Origin: a virus
DNA length: 31,791 nucleotides
Reading direction: 5' to 3' (one strand)
Virus record (IMG/VR): IMGVR_UViG_3300032086_000459
Location: 1-31,791 of that record
Of this stretch, positions 9,457 to 30,799 are shown in pieces (within the stretch, counting starts at the first letter, position 1; the number at the start of each line of letters is the position of its first letter). The notes below the pieces were generated by a model that saw only the letters and a list, made by a program, of their open reading frames with translations, did no database searches and had not been told where the DNA came from. Both the position numbers and the translations under genes were made by a program.

Positions 9457-10161
9457 ATGCCAAGTGAATTTGAAAAAAGACCATTAACAACATACGAAGA
9501 ACCAACAGTACCAGCCGAAGAAGATTTATCAATGTGTTTGTCACCAGAGGACACAAAAACTTTCTATGCCTTAAAAGGTGAAATGAAAGAGAGTTGGGAA
9601 AAAAGACAAATTTACAGAACCGAAGTTGAAATGAGAATAGGTGTTTTAGAGGACTTTAGACATCCAACACCTAGTGCAAAATATTGGCAAGCTGTTAGAG
9701 AAATGTCTCACTATTATGAAAATGTTGTAAATGGTTATTTTGAATATAAAAGAAATGAAATAGAAATTAAAAAAATAGAAAGACAAATTAAAGAAGAAAA
9801 AGATGTTTTAGAAAAAGAATTACTAAACATATCTAAACAAGAATTATTTTTTAAAAGAGCGACTTTGCAACAACATCAAAAAGATCGTATTAGAGAATTA
9901 AGATTATGGTCTAAAATTAAAGCAGAATTAAAAGAAGAAAATCCTAATTTAGAAACTGAAGATGTTAATGAGTCTCAAAAAATATCTTTACCTTTAGAAT
10001 TACAACAAAGATTTAGATTTTTAAAACATAGTCCAGATGTAGGTGGTGCTAAAAATGCAGCTGCACAAATAGAAACTGCTGAAAGATTAAAACGTGAAGG
10101 TAAGTTAGAACCTAAGAATTTATTAAAAAATGATAAAAAGCATAAAAAACTTTCTAAGTAA
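9457..10161 (+). CDS. Coiled-coil hypothetical protein (234 aa)
   Basis: A strong AAGGAG site 5 bases before the ATG fixes the start. The N-terminal about 40 residues are acidic and extended (YEEPTVPAEEDLSMCLSPED). Residues about 45-160 are mostly charged helix with heptads (IEIKKIERQIKEEKDVLEKE), predicting a coiled coil. The C terminus has QQRFRFLKHSP, then a basic tail rich in Lys. It is highly charged, with no membrane segment or signal. The next gene begins inside its last 32 bases. It may be a scaffold or assembly chaperone, but this is a guess; no family recognised. Confidence 0.75.
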   Translation: MPSEFEKRPLTTYEEPTVPAEEDLSMCLSPEDTKTFYALKGEMKESWEKRQIYRTEVEMRIGVLEDFRHPTPSAKYWQAVREMSHYYENVVNGYFEYKRNEIEIKKIERQIKEEKDVLEKELLNISKQELFFKRATLQQHQKDRIRELRLWSKIKAELKEENPNLETEDVNESQKISLPLELQQRFRFLKHSPDVGGAKNAAAQIETAERLKREGKLEPKNLLKNDKKHKKLSK

Positions 10162-10708
10162 AGACGAGTTAAAGTTATCAGTCGCATACTGGAATATAAA
10201 AAAACATACACTTAAACCATGTCCTCAAGTACCTGGTTCATTTTCAGATTATTCAGATACACTAGGAGAAACAATTTTAATTGCAAAACAAAAACTTGTT
10301 GAAAAATATGCAGGTGAAAAACTATTACCTACATATACTTTTACAAGAGTGTATAAAAAAGGTAATACTTTAGAAAAACATTTTGATAGACCTAGTTGCG
10401 AAGTTTCAGTATCTATTAACTTTTATGCAGATAAAGAATGGCCATTAAAATTTAAAAAACTTGAATATGAAAGAGGACCAGTAGATAAAAAAGCAAAAAT
10501 ACAAAGTCTTATTACAAAACCAGGTGACGCTGTTGTTTACGAAGGTATGCAATATGAACACTGGAGAGACGCATACGAAGGTGAGGAATGTGTACAAATT
10601 TTTACTCACTATGTAAGAGCAAATGGTCAGTATAAATTATTTAATAGAGACGGAAGAAAAGATCATAATGAATCTACAAATGAAAGGGTAAAAAGAATAT
10701 GGGGATAA
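10130..10708 (+). CDS. 2-oxoglutarate/Fe(II) oxygenase, prolyl-hydroxylase-like
   Basis: 192 residues, overlapping the previous gene by 32 bases. The N terminus (MIKSIKNFLSKDELK) is the usual opening of this fold. The jelly-roll core shows an HxD at H84/D86 (LEKHFDRPSCEVSVSIN), a turn KPGDAVVYEG at about 130-139, and the distal H144 (MQYEHWRDAYEG) followed by HYV. These supply the iron triad. The usual Lys/Arg about 10 residues after the distal His, which binds 2-oxoglutarate, is not obvious (C154/V155 there). R146 is a possible substitute. It is the first of a tandem oxygenase pair. The substrate is unknown; virion or host proteins are possible. Confidence 0.8.
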   Translation: MIKSIKNFLSKDELKLSVAYWNIKKHTLKPCPQVPGSFSDYSDTLGETILIAKQKLVEKYAGEKLLPTYTFTRVYKKGNTLEKHFDRPSCEVSVSINFYADKEWPLKFKKLEYERGPVDKKAKIQSLITKPGDAVVYEGMQYEHWRDAYEGEECVQIFTHYVRANGQYKLFNRDGRKDHNESTNERVKRIWG

Positions 10709-11319
10709 GATTCACAGAACCAAGATGGAAATCATTAATTGTTAGAACAAACACGCCAATATTTACACCTGAACAATGTGATGATATTATAAGATTAGGA
10801 CAAAGATATACTCCTGAAGTTGCTAAAGTCGGCACTGAAAATATTGATGATAAAAAGAAAAAGGGTGGTACAATTGACAAAAAGAAAAGAATAACACAAA
10901 TTACTTGGATTCCATTTAACGATCCTAACGCAATGCCTATGTATAGTCTTGTTGAAAATGCAATGAATAGAGTCAATACAAATCATTTTGGATATGATTT
11001 TCCACAATTAACAGAATTTGCACAGTTTACTCATTACCCAAAAGGCGCATTTTACGATTGGCATATGGATAGTGAAGTTCATTTTGTTGATGAACCTTTA
11101 GTAAGAAAAATATCAATGACAGTTCTTTTAAATGATCCTAAAGAATTTAAAGGGGGAGAATTACAATTTTTAGATGATGATAAAGATAAAACAAATAATG
11201 ATTTAAAAAGAGGTGAAGCCGTGTTTTTTGCAAGTTATCTACGTCATAGGGTTACTCCAGTTACCCAAGGAGATAGAAAATCTTTAGTAATGTGGTTTGG
11301 TGGACCTCCTTTAAAATAG
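10699..11319 (+). CDS. 2-oxoglutarate/Fe(II) oxygenase, PKHD-type hydroxylase
   Basis: 206 residues. The C-terminal catalytic half is classic PKHD-type: HMDSE gives H122/D124, RKISMTVLLNDP and FKGGELQF form core strands, and LRHRVTPVTQGDRKSLVMWF provides H183 with R193 ten residues later for 2-oxoglutarate. GGPPLK ends the protein as in bacterial relatives. These enzymes hydroxylate amino-acid side chains or small molecules using O2, Fe(II) and 2-oxoglutarate. The gene overlaps the preceding oxygenase by 10 bases, with AAAGGG (10683-10688) upstream. The two are co-expressed, ahead of the gp8 gene and in the middle of virion genes. Confidence 0.9.
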   Translation: MGIRFTEPRWKSLIVRTNTPIFTPEQCDDIIRLGQRYTPEVAKVGTENIDDKKKKGGTIDKKKRITQITWIPFNDPNAMPMYSLVENAMNRVNTNHFGYDFPQLTEFAQFTHYPKGAFYDWHMDSEVHFVDEPLVRKISMTVLLNDPKEFKGGELQFLDDDKDKTNNDLKRGEAVFFASYLRHRVTPVTQGDRKSLVMWFGGPPLK

Positions 11320-12904: not shown

Positions 12905-15900
12905 ATGCCAGCAAAAACTGATTTTAATATCAGTCCCTATTATGACGATTTTACAGAGTCGAAGAAGTTTCATAGAATACTTTTTAGACCTGCATTTGCT
13001 GTTCAAGCAAGAGAATTAACACAATCTCAAACTATTATTCAAAATCAAATAGAAAGAGTTGGCGATCACCTTTTCAAACAAGGTGCAATGGTTATTCCTG
13101 GTCAAGTTTCTATAGACACTCAATACTATGCTATTAAGTTAACATCTAAATCAGCAAGTTCAATAAATGATTATAATAATTCTACAATAACAGGTGGTAC
13201 ATCTGGTGTAGTTGCTGAAGTTATTGGGGTATCAGCTGATGATGGTACTGATCCAGATACGTTATTTGTTAAATACAATAAATCAGGTACTAACAATACA
13301 GATTTAGTTTTTACTGATGGAGAGACAATTACTTCAGACGCAAGTGGCACACCAACTGCTGTTGTAAATACAACTGCTACAGGTTCAGCTGCAGGTGTTC
13401 AAGCAGGAGTTTATTACATTAATGGTTATTTTGTTCAAGTTGACGCTGCAACTTTAGTATTAGACAAATATACAAACACACCATCTTATAGAATTGGTTT
13501 TACTGCAACAGAATCTTTTGTGACTGCAAATGATGATTCTAGTTTAAATGACAATGCAGCTGGTTCGTCTAATGCAAACGCACCTGGTGCTCACAGATTT
13601 AAAATTTTACTAACACTTGCTAAAAAAACATTATCATCTACTGAAGATGATAACTTCTTTGAAGTTGCTAGAGTAGAGTCTGGTACAATTAAAAAAATAG
13701 TAAGAGAAACAGAATATGCTGTATTAGAAGACACACTTGCTCGTAGAACACATGACGAGTCTGGCGACTATGTTTTAAATAATCCTGATTTTGATGTAAG
13801 AGAACATTTAAGTTCAGGAAATAATAGAGGTATATTTACATCAGGTAATGGTGGTTTAGAAAGTAAACTTGCAATTGGTGTTTCACCTTTTAAAGCTTAT
13901 GTAAATGGTTATGAGAATACAAATTTAGCAACAACTTTTGTTGCAATAGATAAAGCAAGAGATTTTGATACAGAAAATAATCACAAAACAAGATTTACTT
14001 TAGATAATTTTATTAACGTAAACAATGTTTATGGCACTCCAGATGTAGGATTTGTTTCTGGTGATGTAGAGGCTTTTAAAACAGTAAATTTATTTGACAC
14101 TGCAACAAGTGTAAGAGGTACTCAACAATCAACAGTAGGTACAACTGTTCCTCAAATTGGTAGAGCAAAATCTCGTGGATATGAAACAGTTTCAGCTACT
14201 GAGACAGACGATATAAACGCAACAACTTCAATTTATAGACATTATATTTTTGATATAGAATTATTTACACACTTAAATTTGACAACTTCAGTTTCTTATA
14301 CAACTGGTGAAGTCGTATCAGGCGCAACTTCAGGTGCAACTGGTATTGTTCAAAGTGTGACAGCAACAACATCAACAACAGTTGCTTCTTGTAGTACAAC
14401 AGCTGCTCCAGATGGTGCTGGTGTATTTACTCAAACTGCTCATGGATTTACAGACGGTCAACAAGTTAATGTATCTGGTGGTTCAATGCAAGTTAACTCA
14501 ACTGCTTACACTGAAGGTGTTTATACAATTAGAAATACAACAGCAAACACTTTTGAATTATATGATGGTTCTAATCCTGTTGTGGTTACATCTTTTTCAT
14601 CTTCACCAACTTTTGAACATACAACCTTAGTTTTATCAACTGTTGAAGGCACATTTAGTGCTAGTGAAGTGGTAACAGGACAAACATCAAATGCAACTGC
14701 AACTATTCAATCAAATATTTTAGGATTTAATGGTGTAAGAGTAAGAGATATTACAGCTGTTAAACAAATTGGTATGGCAGGTTCTCCTACATACACAGCA
14801 GATACAGATTTAACAAACACTTACGGAACAAATGAAACGATTACAGGTAACGTATCAATTGCTAATTCAGACGCTACATTATTTGGTAAAGGTACAAATT
14901 TTACAACAGATTTAAAAATCGGAGAATCTATATCATTTACAAATGACGCAGGTACTACAATTACAAAAACAATTAAATATATTGTATCTCAAACAGAATT
15001 AGAATTAGATAGTGCTGTAGGTTCAAGTGATGTATCAACAGCTTCTATTTTAACTAGAAGAAGAGCAAAACTACAGAATTCAGATAATAATGTTTCTGTA
15101 TTTAAGTTACCATACCAAACAGTTAAGACATTAAAAACAACTGCTAATAGTGGTGCAACTGATACTAACTTTAATGTTAGAAGACAGTTTACTGCTACGT
15201 TATCATCAAATGGTGACGCTACAATTACTGCAGGAACAAATGAAACTTTTGCCTCTTTAGCAAGTGACGATTTTACAGTTTCAATTATGACAACAGGCGC
15301 TGGTTCTACAGGTGCTGTTGGTGATGTATTAAACTTATCTGGTAATAACCACGAAGGTGATTCTATTTTTACATTAACTGGTTCACCTACAGGTAAAACT
15401 TTAACTTTAGATTTTGGTGCAAACTTTAATGGTCACAAAATTAAAATACTTGCTACTGTTCAAAGATCAGTTGCAGGTTCAAAAACAAAAACTGCAAATA
15501 CAAGTCAAACAGTTCAAATTACTTCTCAAACAACAATTGAAAGTGGAACAATTGGTTTAGGTAAGGCAGATGTTTATCAAATAAACAATGTTTATATGTC
15601 TGCTGACTTTAGTACAAACGCTACTTCTAGTGATACAGATATTGCAAGTAGATTTGAATTAGATACAGGACAAAGAGACAACTACTATGACATTGGTAGA
15701 TTAAAATTAAAACCAGGTGCAATAAGACCAACTGGTAGACTACTAGTAAACTTCAATTTCTTTTCACATGGTGCAGGTGACTACTTTGATGTTGACTCAT
15801 ATTCAGGTATTGTAGATTACACAGCAATACCAAGTTATACTTCAGACACTTCTGGTGAAAGATTTGAATTAAGAGATTGTTTAGATTTTAGACCTAGAGT

Positions 15901-20737: not shown

Positions 20738-20745
20738 GATAAATA
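20738..20745 (+). promoter_or_regulatory. Late promoter variant (GATAAATA) abutting the adhesin gene
   Basis: NATAAATA match ending exactly 6 bases before the ATG at 20751, so the predicted start would be the A of the start codon. AAGGA (20735-20739) overlaps the octamer and would serve only read-through mRNA. Confidence 0.5.
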
Positions 20746-20750
20746 GTAGT

Positions 20751-22628
20751 ATGACAACTAAAATAACAAATGCAAATATTACAACAAGAACCATAGAAGC
20801 AGATAAAGTAAAATCTAATGTATTAACAGCTGACGAAATTGCAAATAATGCTGTAACCTCAAACGAAATTAATGATGGTGCTATTGTTAACGCTGATGTA
20901 AGTCCTTCAGCTGCAATCGGTATTTCAAAAATTGACGGTGCTGCTAGTTCATCAGACTTAAATAAAATTAAAGACAATATTGGTCTATTAGGTTTTAAAA
21001 TGGCTGTTAATGAAAGTTTAACAGTTTTCAATTTTGTTGATGGTGTTGTTGACGAGTTCCATGATGAATCAGGAACTGAAGAAACTGCAAGTTCTAATGA
21101 TAGATACAATGCTACAAACGATTTCTACATCAACTCTACACAGGATGATGGTCAATCATCTCCAATGGCAACATTTGCAGGCGGATTTTTATTTGAAAAT
21201 CATTCTGGTACGGTAACAGAACCAGATACTTCAACTGCACAAACTGTTCACCCACAATCATATCAACCTTTAGGAATGCACTATACAGACGCAACTTACA
21301 CAGTTGATCCATCTGTATCTACGGTCACAGTAAAAGGCTGGGGTGGTGGAGGACGAGGTCCTTATAACCAACCTGCATTTATGAGAGGAACTGGTGGTGG
21401 TGGAGGTCACGTTTCTGGTGACTTAACGGTTACTGCTGGTCAAACACTTTACATTGGAGTAGGAACAGATAATCAAACAACATCTTCTCCTGCACCTTTA
21501 CTTGGTCCTGGTAACCCATGGCCAAATTCAAACCCAATGTCAAACGATCATCCTAGATCAGGAATTTATCAATATTTTCCAGACTCTGCTAACCCAGGTG
21601 GTTGGGGACAAAGACATACAGGACAAGGTCACTTTGGTGGCGGTGGATCAATGTCATATGTATCTGTAGGTCCTGCAGAAATAGATTGGGAAAATACAGG
21701 AAATACTTTTGGGGTTACAACTAACTCCGTACCTCAAGTTGCTGGGGCTGCTCCACCTTATACAGGCGGACAAAGAATGAATTACACACCTATATCACCA
21801 CAAATCGCATTTGTTGCTGGAGGTGGTGGAGGTGCAAATGGTTCACAACCATTAGGTACACCAACAAGAAATGGTGGTGCTGGTGGAGGACTAACTGGAG
21901 AAGCTGCAGGTGCTGGAGAACAAACTTCTAGTGGACCAAACGGTGGTGGTGGAGGTGACCAAGAACAAGCTGGGTTAAGACACCCAAGTGCTGGTACTTC
22001 ACCTGATAGTAATGAACCTGAAAGATTTATGTTTACCGAACAAGCTGGGGCTGGTATGGGATGGTTTGCTGGCGGTGGCGGTGGTGGTCAAATGGGTAAC
22101 CACGGTGCATGGGCAGGTGGTGGAGGTTCATCATATTATGGACACCCACAGGTTTCTTCTGGTGCTACAACAGCAGGTTCAACAACAAGTGTTGCTGATT
22201 CTGCCGATCCTGTATATCAACCAGGTGTTGGTAATGGCACAAACTACTGGAATACATCACAAGGTGGTTATGTCTTTATTACTGCAACAGGATTTAATGC
22301 TGCTAGTACAACATCAACTGATATAGTTTCACAACCTTTTACAGCTCAAACTGCACCTACAAGTGCTAGAATTGTAGTATTTGAAGAAAACGTAGATACA
22401 CCTACTTTAAATACAGACATTATTGCTAGAGTAAGTAGAGACGGTGGTTCAAATTACTCACAGGCTACTTTATCTGATAGTGGTTATGTGACAGGTTCAA
22501 GTGGACAAAGAATTTTAACAGGTACTGCTGACGTATCTGGTCAACCATCTGGTACAAATATGAGATGGAAATTAGAATTAAGAAACAATACTGTTAAGAT
22601 ACACGGTGTATCTCTTCAGTGGGCTTAA
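20751..22628 (+). CDS. Glycine-rich tail fiber adhesin candidate (625 aa)
   Basis: Residues 1-65 are degenerate short repeats of fiber type (ITNANITTRTIEADKVKSNV, NNAVTSNEINDGAIVNADV). Residues about 95-190 form a beta domain. Residues about 195-465 are extremely Gly-rich, with runs such as WGGGGRGP, TGGGGGHVSG, GGGGGANGSQ, NGGGGGDQEQ and WAGGGGSSYYG. Each is separated by hydrophobic or polar loops, as in T4-like gp38 adhesins where polyglycine-II helices display receptor-binding loops. Residues about 500-625 are a final beta domain (ISRDGGSNYSQ-like strand, MRWKLELRNNTVKIHGVSLQW). No collagen-type GXY repeat is present. Best reading: receptor-binding fiber; adhesin role inferred. Confidence 0.7.
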   Translation: MTTKITNANITTRTIEADKVKSNVLTADEIANNAVTSNEINDGAIVNADVSPSAAIGISKIDGAASSSDLNKIKDNIGLLGFKMAVNESLTVFNFVDGVVDEFHDESGTEETASSNDRYNATNDFYINSTQDDGQSSPMATFAGGFLFENHSGTVTEPDTSTAQTVHPQSYQPLGMHYTDATYTVDPSVSTVTVKGWGGGGRGPYNQPAFMRGTGGGGGHVSGDLTVTAGQTLYIGVGTDNQTTSSPAPLLGPGNPWPNSNPMSNDHPRSGIYQYFPDSANPGGWGQRHTGQGHFGGGGSMSYVSVGPAEIDWENTGNTFGVTTNSVPQVAGAAPPYTGGQRMNYTPISPQIAFVAGGGGGANGSQPLGTPTRNGGAGGGLTGEAAGAGEQTSSGPNGGGGGDQEQAGLRHPSAGTSPDSNEPERFMFTEQAGAGMGWFAGGGGGGQMGNHGAWAGGGGSSYYGHPQVSSGATTAGSTTSVADSADPVYQPGVGNGTNYWNTSQGGYVFITATGFNAASTTSTDIVSQPFTAQTAPTSARIVVFEENVDTPTLNTDIIARVSRDGGSNYSQATLSDSGYVTGSSGQRILTGTADVSGQPSGTNMRWKLELRNNTVKIHGVSLQWA

Positions 22629-22636
22629 TACAAACT

Positions 22637-22644
22637 ACTAAATA
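22637..22644 (+). promoter_or_regulatory. Weak late promoter-like motif (ACTAAATA)
   Basis: Six of eight match to TATAAATA, 8 bases before the ATG at 22652, which lacks a Shine-Dalgarno. Reported for its position rather than its score. Confidence 0.25.
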
Positions 22645-22651
22645 ATACATT

Positions 22652-23362
22652 ATGACATTTGATTTTAAAAAATACATACCTACTCAGTTTAAGTTTCCTA
22701 AAAAACCAAACGACAGTTATGAGTACATGAATGTCAATCAGGTGCGTTGGAAAGAATTACTTAAACAACACAAAGAAGATCCTGCAAAAGTCACAAAAGA
22801 AAGACTTGAAAAATTCCGTGCAAAATGGATGGAAACTGAAGAAGATAGATTTAAAAGATGGGAACAACAATTTCATCAAAAACATTTAGAAGAAAGATTA
22901 TTAAGAGATTACTCTACATTTAAAGACAACCCAAAAGATTATTTACGAAAAGCAATGGATTTAGGCTCTAGAGGTATAGGTCAATTTACAAAATGGTGGT
23001 GGACTAAACCTAAAAAGTCTGTAGGTGCAGGTAAACTTGTTCAAAGCCCTATAACAGGTAAATGGTCGCAACAATATAAACCTCATAAAAGTCGAAAAAT
23101 TAGAGATTGGTTAAAGGCTGCTGAAAGAGGAGATGTCTTTAGAGGCTCATTAAATCCAAATGGCATACCAATTAAGTTGAATGAACCAACTGAAGAAATG
23201 AAATATATTCATGGCGAAGCAACACGTAAAAGAGAAATGATAAAATGGAGATGGTTTTTAAAAGAAACAAACTTTATGGGAAGTAAAGATGATAAGAAAA
23301 GAAAAATGATGTGGGATGACCCAATAGTAGGTTTCTGGAAAACTATGGATATACAGCATTAA
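22652..23362 (+). CDS. Basic, tryptophan-rich hypothetical protein (236 aa)
   Basis: The product is strongly basic and Trp-rich: MNVNQVRWKELLKQHKEDP, FRAKWMETEEDRFKRWEQQF, FTKWWWTKPKKS, IKWRWFLKETN, GFWKTMDIQH. The first half is mainly charged helix. A short Gly/Pro linker (GAGKLVQSPITGKWSQQY) separates it from a second helical part. There is no signal peptide or membrane segment. Such composition suits a structural or nucleic-acid/envelope-contacting protein, but I recognise no family. It follows the glycine-rich adhesin, so it could be that fiber's chaperone (as T4 gp57/gp38 aid other fibers). That is only positional inference. Confidence 0.7.
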   Translation: MTFDFKKYIPTQFKFPKKPNDSYEYMNVNQVRWKELLKQHKEDPAKVTKERLEKFRAKWMETEEDRFKRWEQQFHQKHLEERLLRDYSTFKDNPKDYLRKAMDLGSRGIGQFTKWWWTKPKKSVGAGKLVQSPITGKWSQQYKPHKSRKIRDWLKAAERGDVFRGSLNPNGIPIKLNEPTEEMKYIHGEATRKREMIKWRWFLKETNFMGSKDDKKRKMMWDDPIVGFWKTMDIQH

Positions 23363-23365
23363 CGC

Positions 23366-23394
23366 TTGACATTTTATTAAGAAAGTGATACAAT
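23366..23394 (+). promoter_or_regulatory. Near-consensus sigma70 promoter with extended -10
   Basis: TTGACA (23366-23371), a 17-base spacer, then TACAAT (23389-23394) preceded by TGA as an extended -10 element. The -35 is perfect and the -10 has five of six matches. The predicted start, about 7 bases after the -10, falls on the ATG at 23401. It would be read by unmodified host polymerase and is the strongest such promoter noticed here. Confidence 0.75.
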
Positions 23395-23400
23395 ATTAAT

Positions 23401-24003
23401 ATGAGTGAAAATACCCAAAAACAAGTACCTCTTACTTCTACAAAACAATTAGAAACTATTAGACTTAACAATACCTTTTGTTCAATTATACACACCGATA
23501 TTTTAAGTAGTAAACAGTGTGATTTAATTACAAAAGAAATAGTACCTGAGTTATGGGTAGATGTTAATGCTAAAGGTGATTTAATTAAAAATATTAGACA
23601 ACAACCTTTACCTATTAACACAGATGGTTGGCCTTTAACACATATTTTAGCAGGATTAAAAGAGGCAGACAAAGAAAAATTTAAGTTTGATCTAAGAGGA
23701 TTTTTAGAAAATGACGCACCTACTTTATGGGAATATTCTAAAGGTAGTCATTATGATTTACATATAGATATAGGTAATAACTTTCCTACAAGAAAATTAA
23801 GTTTTATAGTTCAATTATCAGACTCAAAAGATTATGAGGGTGGTGATATAGAATTTTTAAATAGTAAAACAGATAAAGAACAACTAAGAAAAAAAGGTAA
23901 GTTAATTATTTTTCCTTCTTTCATAACACACAAAATTACTAAAATAACTAAAGGCACTAGACACGCTATAGTTGGATGGGTTCATGGTCCTACTTTCTTT
24001 TAA
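23401..24003 (+). CDS. 2-oxoglutarate/Fe(II) oxygenase (200 aa)
   Basis: The catalytic core is complete: HYDLHIDIG gives H121/D123, RKLSFIVQLSD and YEGGDIEFL are the core strands, KGKLIIFPSFITHKITKITK gives H177, and R187 lies ten residues later for 2-oxoglutarate. This is the prolyl 4-hydroxylase / PKHD-like jelly-roll family, which hydroxylates protein or small-molecule substrates. The N-terminal 100 residues vary and probably define the substrate. It is driven by a sigma70-type promoter rather than a late one, so early expression is predicted. It is followed by a second oxygenase two bases after its stop. Confidence 0.88.
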   Translation: MSENTQKQVPLTSTKQLETIRLNNTFCSIIHTDILSSKQCDLITKEIVPELWVDVNAKGDLIKNIRQQPLPINTDGWPLTHILAGLKEADKEKFKFDLRGFLENDAPTLWEYSKGSHYDLHIDIGNNFPTRKLSFIVQLSDSKDYEGGDIEFLNSKTDKEQLRKKGKLIIFPSFITHKITKITKGTRHAIVGWVHGPTFF

Positions 24004-24005
24004 AA

Positions 24006-24623
24006 ATGCCTACAATTACAGATAACTCTCGTATAGATAATTTATTTGGTGTAAAAATATTTTACAAAATACTTCCTAATTTAGAAGAAGAAAATAAAAA
24101 AATAATTAACAGACTTTATCTTATTAAAAAAAATGATCCTAAAGGTGTTAATAGATCAAATCAATTAGGTTGGCATAGTCATACAGACTTAATGCAATTT
24201 CCCGAATTAGATGAATTTAAAAAACATCTTAACTTTACTTTAGGTGAAATATTTACATATTACGATTACAAACATGGTTATAAATTAGAATTAGATACTT
24301 GTTGGGGTAATATTAATCCTAAATACGGTTTTAATACAACACACTCTCATCCAAGTTGTTTATGGTCAGGTGTTTATTATTTACAGGTTCCTGAAAACTG
24401 TGGAAATATATATTTTGTAGATCCAATTAAACCTAGAATACATTATGGCGCACAATATAATAACGAAAATAGTGAGTTAGCGTCAACATCTATTTTCTAT
24501 AAACCACAAGTTAGTAAGTTAATTATTTTTCCTGCATACTTAGAACACTTTGTTAGACCCAACTTATCAGACACAGATAGAATATCTTTATCTTTTAACA
24601 TAAGACTAAACGAATATAAATAG
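24006..24623 (+). CDS. Putative 2OG-Fe(II) oxygenase, TIGR02466-like (205 aa)
   Basis: I choose ATG 24006, two bases after the previous stop. An in-frame ATG at 23976 would lie within the upstream gene. The family signature is THSHPSCLWSGVYYLQVPE (H113/H115, about residues 112-130), GNIYFVDP, then KLIIFPAYLEHFVRPNLSDT with H181 and R192, ending ISLSFNIRL. This matches the 2OG-FeII_Oxy_5 / TIGR02466 type common in marine phages. The first metal pair reads HxH rather than HxD. WHSHTDL near residue 57 is the usual N-terminal motif. Cotranscribed with the preceding oxygenase. Confidence 0.85.
   Translation: MPTITDNSRIDNLFGVKIFYKILPNLEEENKKIINRLYLIKKNDPKGVNRSNQLGWHSHTDLMQFPELDEFKKHLNFTLGEIFTYYDYKHGYKLELDTCWGNINPKYGFNTTHSHPSCLWSGVYYLQVPENCGNIYFVDPIKPRIHYGAQYNNENSELASTSIFYKPQVSKLIIFPAYLEHFVRPNLSDTDRISLSFNIRLNEYK
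24615..24622 (+). promoter_or_regulatory. T4-type late promoter (TATAAATA)
   Basis: Exact octamer overlapping the last codons of the oxygenase (TAT AAA TAG), 19 bases before the ATG at 24641. AGGAGA (24630-24635) lies between, so the mRNA keeps a good Shine-Dalgarno. Confidence 0.65.
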
Positions 24624-26910: not shown

Positions 26911-26913
26911 TTG

Positions 26914-27720
26914 ATGGCAACCCCAGCTACAAGAGAACAGTTAAAACAATACGCATTACGAACATTAGGTAAGCCTGTAATTGAAATTAACGTAGATGAC
27001 GCACAATTAGAAGATAGACTTGATGAAGCTCTACAATATTTTGCTCAATATCACTACGATGGTGTTGAAAGAGTATATTTAAAATATCAATTTACAGAAG
27101 CAGACAAAACAAGATTAACCTCAAACACGTCTGAAACAGTCACTAAAAATTCAGAAAGCACAACTTTTAAAACTCAAAACAATTATTTAATTGTACCTGA
27201 AGGTGTATTAGCAGTTAACAGAATTTTTAATCTTTCAGACAAAAGTAATTTAAATTTATTTGATGTAAGATACCAATTAAGATTAAATGACTTGTATGAT
27301 TTTTCTTCAACAAGTATTATTCACTATGATATGGTATTAAGACATTTAGATTTTTTAGACCATATTTTAGTTGGTGAAAAACCTTTAAGATTTAATCAAC
27401 ACAATAATAGATTATATATTGATATGGATTGGACTAATGATTTAACAGTTGGTGAGTATCTAGTAATAGAGTGTTATAGAAAATTAGATCCAAGTGTTAT
27501 GACAGATGTATTTAATGATATATTTTTAAAAAGATATGTCACAGCTTTGTTTAAAAAACAATGGGGTGCTAACTTATCTAAATTTAATGGTGTTGCAATG
27601 ATTGGTGGAGTGACACTTAATGGGCAACAAATTTATTCAGAAGCGCTACAGGATGTTGAAAAACTAGAACAAGAAATTAGAGGAACATACGAAACGCCTG
27701 TAACCTACATGATAGGATAA
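26914..27720 (+). CDS. 13: Neck protein gp13
   Basis: I use ATG 26914. A TTG at 26911 would add one residue and is less likely, as GAGG (26903-26906) fits the ATG with a 7-base gap. 268 residues against 309 in T4. The family start is plain: ATREQLKQYALRTLGKPVIE, then NVDDAQLEDRLDEALQYFAQ and YHYDGVERVYLKY. Later segments include LIVPEGVLAVNRIFNL, RYQLRLNDLYDF and FNDIFLKRYVTALFKKQWG. gp13 and gp14 close the filled head and form the connector to which the tail attaches. Transcribed with gp14 and gp15. Confidence 0.93.
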   Translation: MATPATREQLKQYALRTLGKPVIEINVDDAQLEDRLDEALQYFAQYHYDGVERVYLKYQFTEADKTRLTSNTSETVTKNSESTTFKTQNNYLIVPEGVLAVNRIFNLSDKSNLNLFDVRYQLRLNDLYDFSSTSIIHYDMVLRHLDFLDHILVGEKPLRFNQHNNRLYIDMDWTNDLTVGEYLVIECYRKLDPSVMTDVFNDIFLKRYVTALFKKQWGANLSKFNGVAMIGGVTLNGQQIYSEALQDVEKLEQEIRGTYETPVTYMIG

Positions 27721-29341: not shown

Positions 29342-30799
29342 ATGAAAAAAAACTTTGTTATTTTAGGTGGTGGTACAGCAGGCTGGTTCACAGCTTTGTT
29401 TATCAAAAAAGTTAGGCCTAACGATAATGTATCTTTAATAGAAAGTACTAAAATTGGTACAATAGGTGTAGGTGAAGCTACAACACCTAATATAATAAAC
29501 TTTTTTCATTATCTAGGTATTTCTAAAGAAGAAGTAATCAAAAACACAAACGGAACAATCAAAAATGGTATCAGTTTTGAAAACTGGAATGGTGATGGTA
29601 AAAAATATTTTCATGCCTTTTATGAACATCTAACTGATTTTAAACTTGACCCTATATTTTCACACGATTGTTTTGAATTTTATTTAAAAAATTTAATTGC
29701 ACAAAATAAAAACTTAGATGATTATCAGTATTCATCTTTACTTTCATATCAAAATAAAGTAGATGACAAAAACATTTCTTACGCATTACATTTTGACGCA
29801 GGTATGTTGGCTGAGTTTTTAAAGAAAAAAGCATTAGAAAGAGGTATTACACACATTGACGCTGAGTTTGAAAGTTTAACTACAAATGATAAAAATGATA
29901 TTACAAGTATTACATTAAATAACAAACAAACAGTTAATTTAGATTTTATTTTTGATTGTTCAGGTATGGCAAGAAAAATTATAGGTGAACATTATAAACA
30001 AAAATGGATATCCTATAGAGATCATTTGCCTATGAAAAAGGCAATCATAATACCAAAAGAAAAAGAAGATTTATTTCCTTACACAAAAGCGATTGCTTTA
30101 AAACACGGATGGGTTTTTGAAATACCTTTACAACATAGAGTAGGTAGAGGATATATTTTTGACTCAGATTATATCAATGAAGAACAAGCACTTAAAGAAG
30201 TTGAAGAACATTACAATGAGAAAATAGAAGTAAAAAAAGTAATAGATTTTGACGCAGGTAGATTTAAAGATGTATGGATTAATAACTGTATTGCTATAGG
30301 TTTATCATCTACTTTTATAGAGCCATTAGAATCAACTTCATTGTTTTTAACAATAGAACAATTATTAGCATTAAATCATTTTCAAAATACTTGGTTTGAA
30401 AATAATAAACACGATAGAGAATTGTATAATGAATTGTGTAGTAAAAATATGCAAGAGACTTTAAATTTTGTTTACCTACATTACATCACTAAAAGAAAAG
30501 ACAGTCAATTTTGGATTGACTTTCCTAATAAACATAAACCACCTAAAGGTTATGAAGAGAAGATAAAACTTTTAAAAGAAAATAATTTTAGACATTTTGA
30601 TATTTTAGATTTTAAAGTGACTGCAAGTTTTAGAATGACAAGTTATATTCAAGTGGCACGTGGTTTAGATGTTGCTACAAAACCTATTAATGTTAAAAAT
30701 TTTGAAAACATTAGTCCTTCTATTGATGAATATAAAAAATTAATTGAATATCATGCTAAATACGCACCTACAATGGCTGAGTATTTAACAAAACTATAA
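29342..30799 (+). CDS. Flavin-dependent halogenase, tryptophan-halogenase family
   Basis: 485 residues. The FAD-binding Rossmann motif GGGTAGW is at about 9-15, followed by GVGEATTPN (about 42-50). K74 (GTIKNGISFENW) sits where the catalytic Lys of PrnA-type enzymes lies. WVFEIP (257-262) corresponds to the family's WxWxIP. SSTFIEPLESTSLFL supplies the Glu/Ser pair (E330-S331). These enzymes use FADH2, O2 and halide to make HOX, which is steered to the Lys. A cyanophage enzyme of this family that iodinates substrates (VirX1) has been described. This copy is placed between gp15 and gp16 in the late operon. No flavin reductase is seen here. Substrate unknown. Confidence 0.88.
   Translation: MKKNFVILGGGTAGWFTALFIKKVRPNDNVSLIESTKIGTIGVGEATTPNIINFFHYLGISKEEVIKNTNGTIKNGISFENWNGDGKKYFHAFYEHLTDFKLDPIFSHDCFEFYLKNLIAQNKNLDDYQYSSLLSYQNKVDDKNISYALHFDAGMLAEFLKKKALERGITHIDAEFESLTTNDKNDITSITLNNKQTVNLDFIFDCSGMARKIIGEHYKQKWISYRDHLPMKKAIIIPKEKEDLFPYTKAIALKHGWVFEIPLQHRVGRGYIFDSDYINEEQALKEVEEHYNEKIEVKKVIDFDAGRFKDVWINNCIAIGLSSTFIEPLESTSLFLTIEQLLALNHFQNTWFENNKHDRELYNELCSKNMQETLNFVYLHYITKRKDSQFWIDFPNKHKPPKGYEEKIKLLKENNFRHFDILDFKVTASFRMTSYIQVARGLDVATKPINVKNFENISPSIDEYKKLIEYHAKYAPTMAEYLTKL

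Follow-up and report, generated by a model that had tools for sequence, protein, structure and literature searches.

A conserved promoter of prereplicative type predicted to drive an oxygenase gene pair in the late region of a pelagimyophage-like genome fragment

The virus record IMGVR_UViG_3300032086_000459, analysed here over its entire length of 31,791 bases (the window), carries among its tail-fibre and neck genes a pair of oxygenase genes preceded by a sequence (23366–23394) that we consider, with a probability of about three in four, a true prereplicative promoter of the pelagimyophages' own type. This promoter would be read by host RNA polymerase carrying the principal sigma factor, sigma70, at a stage when gp55, the late sigma factor of the phage, has yet to be synthesised; transcription would begin at the ATG at 23401, give or take one base, yielding a leaderless mRNA for two 2OG-Fe(II) oxygenases of the prolyl-hydroxylase type, with read-through into the late genes to be expected. 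As judged from its relatives, the cassette is old and the class of its promoter has changed between lineages. The promoter classes of pelagimyophages are poorly known, and a usable early consensus is now at hand; moreover, an early promoter kept by selection within a late region, together with a sharp 5-nt placement of late boxes, makes both the timing of expression and leaderless translation testable in culture.

Table 1. Features of the oxygenase cassette and its surroundings in the window
Feature	Position	Strand	Remarks
Tail-fibre-like gene, at the left end of the syntenic block	20751–22628	+	box GATAAATA at 20738, 5 nt from the ATG
CTAAATA, perhaps a variant late box belonging to the gene at 22652–23362 (weak)	22638–22644	+	
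Preceding gene, part of the syntenic block	22652–23362	+	no family assigned
Promoter block of 35 nt, selectively conserved	23366–23400	+	34/35 in three orthologue groups; 27/35 in L048
−35 hexamer TTGACA	23366–23371	+	common to all 8 distinct strong promoters of the family (17-nt spacer, n = 5; 16-nt spacer, n = 3)
Extended −10: TG, A, TACAAT	23386–23394	+	TATAAT in L048 and L006
Predicted +1, the A of the start codon	23401	+	from the −10 geometry; no Shine-Dalgarno site; ATGAGTGAAAAT kept in orthologues
Gene 1: 2OG-Fe(II) oxygenase, PF13640, prolyl-4-hydroxylase-type fold	23401–24003	+	
Gene 2: PF13759/TIGR02466 oxygenase-like protein	24006–24623	+	starts 2 nt past the gene 1 stop
Late-type box TATAAATA of the gene that follows (24641)	24615–24622	+	overlaps the end of gene 2

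Phage fragment and host

The order of PHROG matches in the window (baseplate wedge, tail-fibre, head-tail adaptor of the gp13 type, head closure of the gp14 type, tail sheath stabiliser, tryptophan halogenase, and small terminase) and the identity of the sheath stabiliser to its counterparts in Pelagibacter phage Mosig (62%) and in HTVC008M (54%) mark the window, by sequence similarity, as a piece of the late region of a T4-like phage, pelagimyophage-like and nearest to these two; a DNA similarity search of the window against GenBank phage records gave no match. The host, assigned by similarity, is probably SAR11, the commonest bacteria of the ocean. The tryptophan halogenase gene (29342–30799), situated between the sheath stabiliser and the small terminase genes, is missing in L019–L021, in which the flanking genes are adjacent. 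The listed reading frame of the gp13-type gene starts with TTG at 26911, the ATG at 26914 being the likelier start.

Promoter sequence and its conservation

A TTGACA hexamer followed, after a 17-nt spacer ending in TGA, by TACAAT (23389–23394) had been proposed from the sequence alone as a promoter with its start on the ATG at 23401, and the site indeed stands at exactly that place, an 11-of-12 match with an extended −10. The −10 hexamer is counted as −12 to −7, and the assignment of +1 to the A of the ATG rests on this convention. The site ranks first among 77 promoter-like sites found between 14000 and 31791, being the sole one with 11/12, and with the TG; the total does not exceed that in shuffled sequences (83.5 ± 7.8), so the weak sites are meaningless. 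Of 500 dinucleotide shuffles of the window, 23 contain at least one site with 11/12 or more, a 17-nt spacer, and TG, and the hexamers by themselves are only mildly surprising. About 2% of positions on the two strands have a listed start no more than 40 nt downstream; it is its position together with its conservation that makes the 23366 site convincing.

The promoter block retains 34 of its 35 positions in L041, L043, and L046, against 31/45, 33/44, and 29/46 fourfold-degenerate sites of gene 1, respectively (63–75%). In L048, both hexamers are perfect and 27/35 block positions are kept, compared with 13/35 fourfold sites (37%). In the 35 nt directly upstream of the block, 17 positions are kept (12 in L048). 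A scan of viral_contigs with the block pattern retrieved nine contigs, in every one of which the pattern lies at gene 1. Since the block is kept beyond the level of the fourfold sites, the promoter is, on this comparison, under selection.

The oxygenase cassette in related phages

The order of tail-fibre gene, 22652-like gene, gene 1, and gene 2 is kept in many lineages, including those with late boxes, and differs in L062–L064 and L068–L074. A single-sequence scan for relatives of the 22652 gene returned a near-identical contig only. The sequence CTAAATA, found upstream of this gene (Table 1), is described for the late promoters of phage Aeh1 in the available text of PMC1524935. As the sequence-only reading had it, the rightward motifs of the window are mostly of the TATAAATA kind, the exact sequence occurring 11 times on the plus strand and 0 times on the minus strand.

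Strong sigma70-type sites (at least 10/12, with TG, within 100 nt) precede nine of 24 distinct members of the gene 1 family, vs one of 96 other genes in the same contigs, the nine representing few independent events: one lineage with the 17-nt spacer, one with the 16-nt spacer, and L081. The first comprises five upstream sequences with a 6-nt distance to the ATG; the second (L060, L061, and L071) has perfect hexamers (12/12) and 25–26 nt between the −10 and the ATG; the site in L081 is marginal (10/12, 30% identity). A late box is found in six of the 24 upstream sequences. In L050, L052, L053, L055, and L057, it lies 25–28 nt upstream and is accompanied by a Shine-Dalgarno site. L048 has a late box 39 nt upstream of its start, overlapping the previous stop; the upstream sequence of L058 precedes another oxygenase and was given no weight in the late group. 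On the gene 1 tree, the early label requires two changes, one change being also compatible with the starred branches. A second lineage has a 12/12 sigma70 site of its own, and late boxes are present in a third; the comparison indicates a change of promoter class within a cassette that is syntenic.

Large oxygenase clusters occupy the same site, before gp13, in Mosig (record positions 39650–44735, L028) and HTVC008M (56402–59681, L026), the former holding heme-oxygenase and bilin-reductase annotations and the latter lying on the opposite strand. The early motif described below was not found in front of either cluster.

A moron is recognised by a promoter and a terminator of its own and by being a recent insertion, absent from relatives at the site. 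The oxygenase pair, which had been likened to morons, shares with them a promoter of its own amid phage genes of another class. It differs from them in that no terminator-like site was found between 21988 and 29379 and in that the same cassette with its neighbours is conserved and syntenic in many related contigs; the comparison is therefore abandoned. Moreover, as there is no visible stop to transcription at 24623, early reads confined to 23401–24623, proposed earlier as the signature of the promoter, are not predicted.

The oxygenases and their possible target

The start of gene 2, placed previously at 23976, is corrected to 24006, and the two genes are likely co-transcribed. Both products look like peptide-type hydroxylases, a putative function based on family matches and modelled folds. 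In gene 1, H121 and D123 of the HxD motif are invariant in all nine aligned homologues, the distal histidine being replaced by tyrosine in L013, and the model (pLDDT 77) matches PiuC and viral and bacterial prolyl hydroxylases with TM of about 0.5–0.6. The modelled fold and the HxD motif are thus those of the PKHD-type and P4H 2OG-Fe(II) oxygenases (PiuC, Pseudomonas putida P4H, and PBCV-1 vCPH), but gene 1 scores at best 66 bits against the NCBIfam PKHD models, below every cut-off (143–399), and falls within the PF13640 superfamily. The gene 2 product scores 135 bits against TIGR02466 (cut-off 62.5), and its model (pLDDT 86) matches the structures 3bvc and 2rg4 with TM of 0.75–0.77; no function was found for a member of this family (TIGR02466/PF13759). 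A further oxygenase pair had been proposed elsewhere in the window, of which one half stands, 10699–11319 encoding an oxygenase domain, and the other does not, the 10130–10708 protein giving no Pfam match. The latter is similar to phrog_2954 and to the N-terminal portion of phrog_3531.

Action of the pair on the host rather than on virions, suggested earlier, is not implied by the promoter, because timing does not fix the target, and homologues at the same site have late promoters. An early promoter may be a head start: the pair would be made in advance and would hydroxylate tail-fibre or neck proteins as they appear, a reading compatible with the promoter and one to which we give somewhat less than even odds. 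It is favoured by the constant position of the pair between tail-fibre-like and neck genes, in lineages with early and with late promoters alike, and by the Mosig and HTVC008M clusters at the same place, although a fixed site may be a mere insertion hot spot and the heme-oxygenase and bilin-reductase annotations of the Mosig cluster fit it poorly. Nor was a collagen-like repeat (at least five G-x-y), a possible hydroxylase substrate, found in the 30 window proteins examined. The alternative of a phage hydroxylase of the P4H kind that acts on a host protein, e.g., a translation factor, or on host 2OG or iron status, is likewise compatible with the promoter and draws on its early class and on the match of both models to bacterial P4H, including the P. 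putida enzyme solved with EF-Tu (4iw3), and of gene 1 also to PiuC; nevertheless, the matches are at the level of fold (TM of about 0.5–0.77, 10–23% identity, many substrates named) and homologues with late promoters exist, which makes it rather unlikely. If the promoter is what we propose, these phages, which have many oxygenases, would need at least a part of them ahead of virion proteins.

Placement of promoters on start codons

Among late boxes near a start codon, the distance from NATAAATA to the ATG is exactly 5 nt in 3/12 in the window (20738, 26451, and 30795), 6/35 in Mosig (L028–L030), and 9/24 in HTVC008M (L025–L027), i.e., 18/71 in total, far too often to be accidental. The same placement is found in 0/18 boxes in a 50-kb stretch of T4, 0/10 in a stretch of S-SSM5, and 1/11 in a stretch of Melnitz, and distances of 0 to 4 nt are absent in all six sets. 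In other contigs, it accounts for 9/65 boxes, with 9/40 for TATAAATA itself vs 18/774 for permuted words. In the window, Mosig, and HTVC008M summed, Shine-Dalgarno-like sites accompany 4/24 boxes at most 8 nt from the ATG vs 25/30 boxes at 13–30 nt. Since the T4 late box spans −13 to −6 according to the available text of PMC1524935, the 5-nt placement puts +1 on the ATG, and its excess predicts leaderless late mRNAs.

The early site at 23366 has the same design, its −10 ending 6 nt before the ATG, with no Shine-Dalgarno site. Early-type sites with this 6-nt distance also occur at 76441–76476 in the HTVC008M record and 15718–15683 in the Mosig record and are candidates for leaderless early mRNAs; the HTVC008M gene concerned (76476), annotated as DNA endonuclease V, was considered as a further oxygenase and rejected, as it has no 2OG domain. 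In the SAR11 genome G001 (L243–L262), a Shine-Dalgarno-like site precedes 9% of 353 ORFs, vs about 40% in two phages, and 17 −10-like hexamers lie at 6 nt, vs about 7.5 per distance, an excess only suggestive of leaderless mRNAs in the host. We put at even odds the broader proposal that in pelagimyophages the 5' end of many transcripts coincides exactly with the start codon, by way of two promoter classes, the late gp55-type one and the early sigma70 one at the oxygenase pair, that leaderless translation is a normal mode of these phages in the Shine-Dalgarno-poor SAR11, and that control of the syntenic cassette has switched between an early leaderless and a late leadered mode.

Class of the promoter

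HTVC008M possesses a uniform motif, TTGACW, 14 nt, TGA, TATAAT, which precedes the genes for DNA polymerase, primase, gp55, and exonuclease and is found also near gp45, uvsX, and gp32. A matrix trained on 11 HTVC008M sites, hand-picked for consensus, TG, and place, has one strong match in the window, the 23366 site, whose score of 18.3 lies below that of every training site (24.1–35.8) and is matched by one of 500 window shuffles (1/60 in an earlier set); the next match (11.5) is antisense. In Mosig, which is outside the training set, the top five matches are found upstream of uvsY, of gp55, of an AAA-family gene next to S21, and of two hypothetical genes of the early region, and the next two are antisense in late genes, the lower matches being unsure since Mosig shuffles score up to 18.6. 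Exact matches to TTGAC-N15-TGNTANNAT number 14 in HTVC008M, three in Mosig, and one in the window. Early-class sites of the cultured pelagimyophages are thus of the TTGACW/TGNTATAAT type and precede replication or early genes in both relatives, and the 23366 site shows the features of this type (TTGACW, a 17-nt spacer with TGN, TANNAT).

As the motif is plentiful in HTVC008M and was found in none of five SAR11 genomes, nor in 592 kb of SAR11 loci, its earlier description as host-type is misleading, and the site, on sequence grounds, is most aptly termed a prereplicative pelagimyophage promoter of the sigma70 type. SAR11 rRNA promoters, used as a yardstick, have best sites of 9–11 of 12 in 55 of the 80 loci with enough upstream sequence, with no clear common promoter; the 16S probe was a sequence that we take to be that of SAR11. 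The proposal that the promoter is unlike those of the surrounding late genes holds, its class being distinct from the late boxes. Since two cultured relatives carry this motif ahead of their replication genes, the pair would most naturally be expressed before late transcription. The likeliest outcome is a two-gene oxygenase mRNA, probably leaderless, which the conserved early promoter would yield before the late genes are switched on.

Like the early promoters of T4-like phages, which are used by the host enzyme for prereplicative genes and often serve novel ORFs (available text of PMC1524935), the site has sigma70-like hexamers. It differs from the T4 ones, with their GTTTAC −35, by belonging to a class with TTGACW, a constant 17-nt spacer, and TGN, by lying inside a tail-fibre and neck late region, and by its predicted +1 on the ATG. 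The early promoters predicted with BPROM in Melnitz and in pelagimyophages (PMC9004378 and PMC7029224) concern the same phage family and the same idea of an early class, but the available text of these papers, which reports 31 early and 15 late promoters for Melnitz (PMC9004378), contains neither a consensus nor a promoter upstream of an oxygenase pair. Prediction of middle and late promoters was unsuccessful in the main comparative study, as far as its available text goes (PMC7029224), and a pelagiphage transcriptome paper concerns, in its available text, phages HTVC022P and HTVC027P (PMC12753301).

A middle promoter of the T4 type, in need of an activator like MotA, would share the extended −10, and in the relatives this motif is also found ahead of middle-type genes; however, near −30 of 23401 there is no MotA box TGCTT (consensus from the available text of PMC1524935), the −35 is a full TTGACA, and the available text of PMC7029224 reports motA and asi homologues as absent from pelagimyophages, so that this reading is very improbable. 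Slightly less probable still is a chance or vestigial site in an AT-rich spacer, with the pair read solely from upstream late promoters, for although equally good sites arise in shuffles at the rate given above, the block is conserved beyond synonymous sites, a second lineage has a 12/12 site, and the position is on the ATG. No TATAAATA is present at −13 to −6 before 23401.

Antisense early-type motifs inside genes occur in both HTVC008M and Mosig; the strong ones at 13039 and 23571 of the HTVC008M record (minus strand) may possibly represent antisense transcripts or origins.
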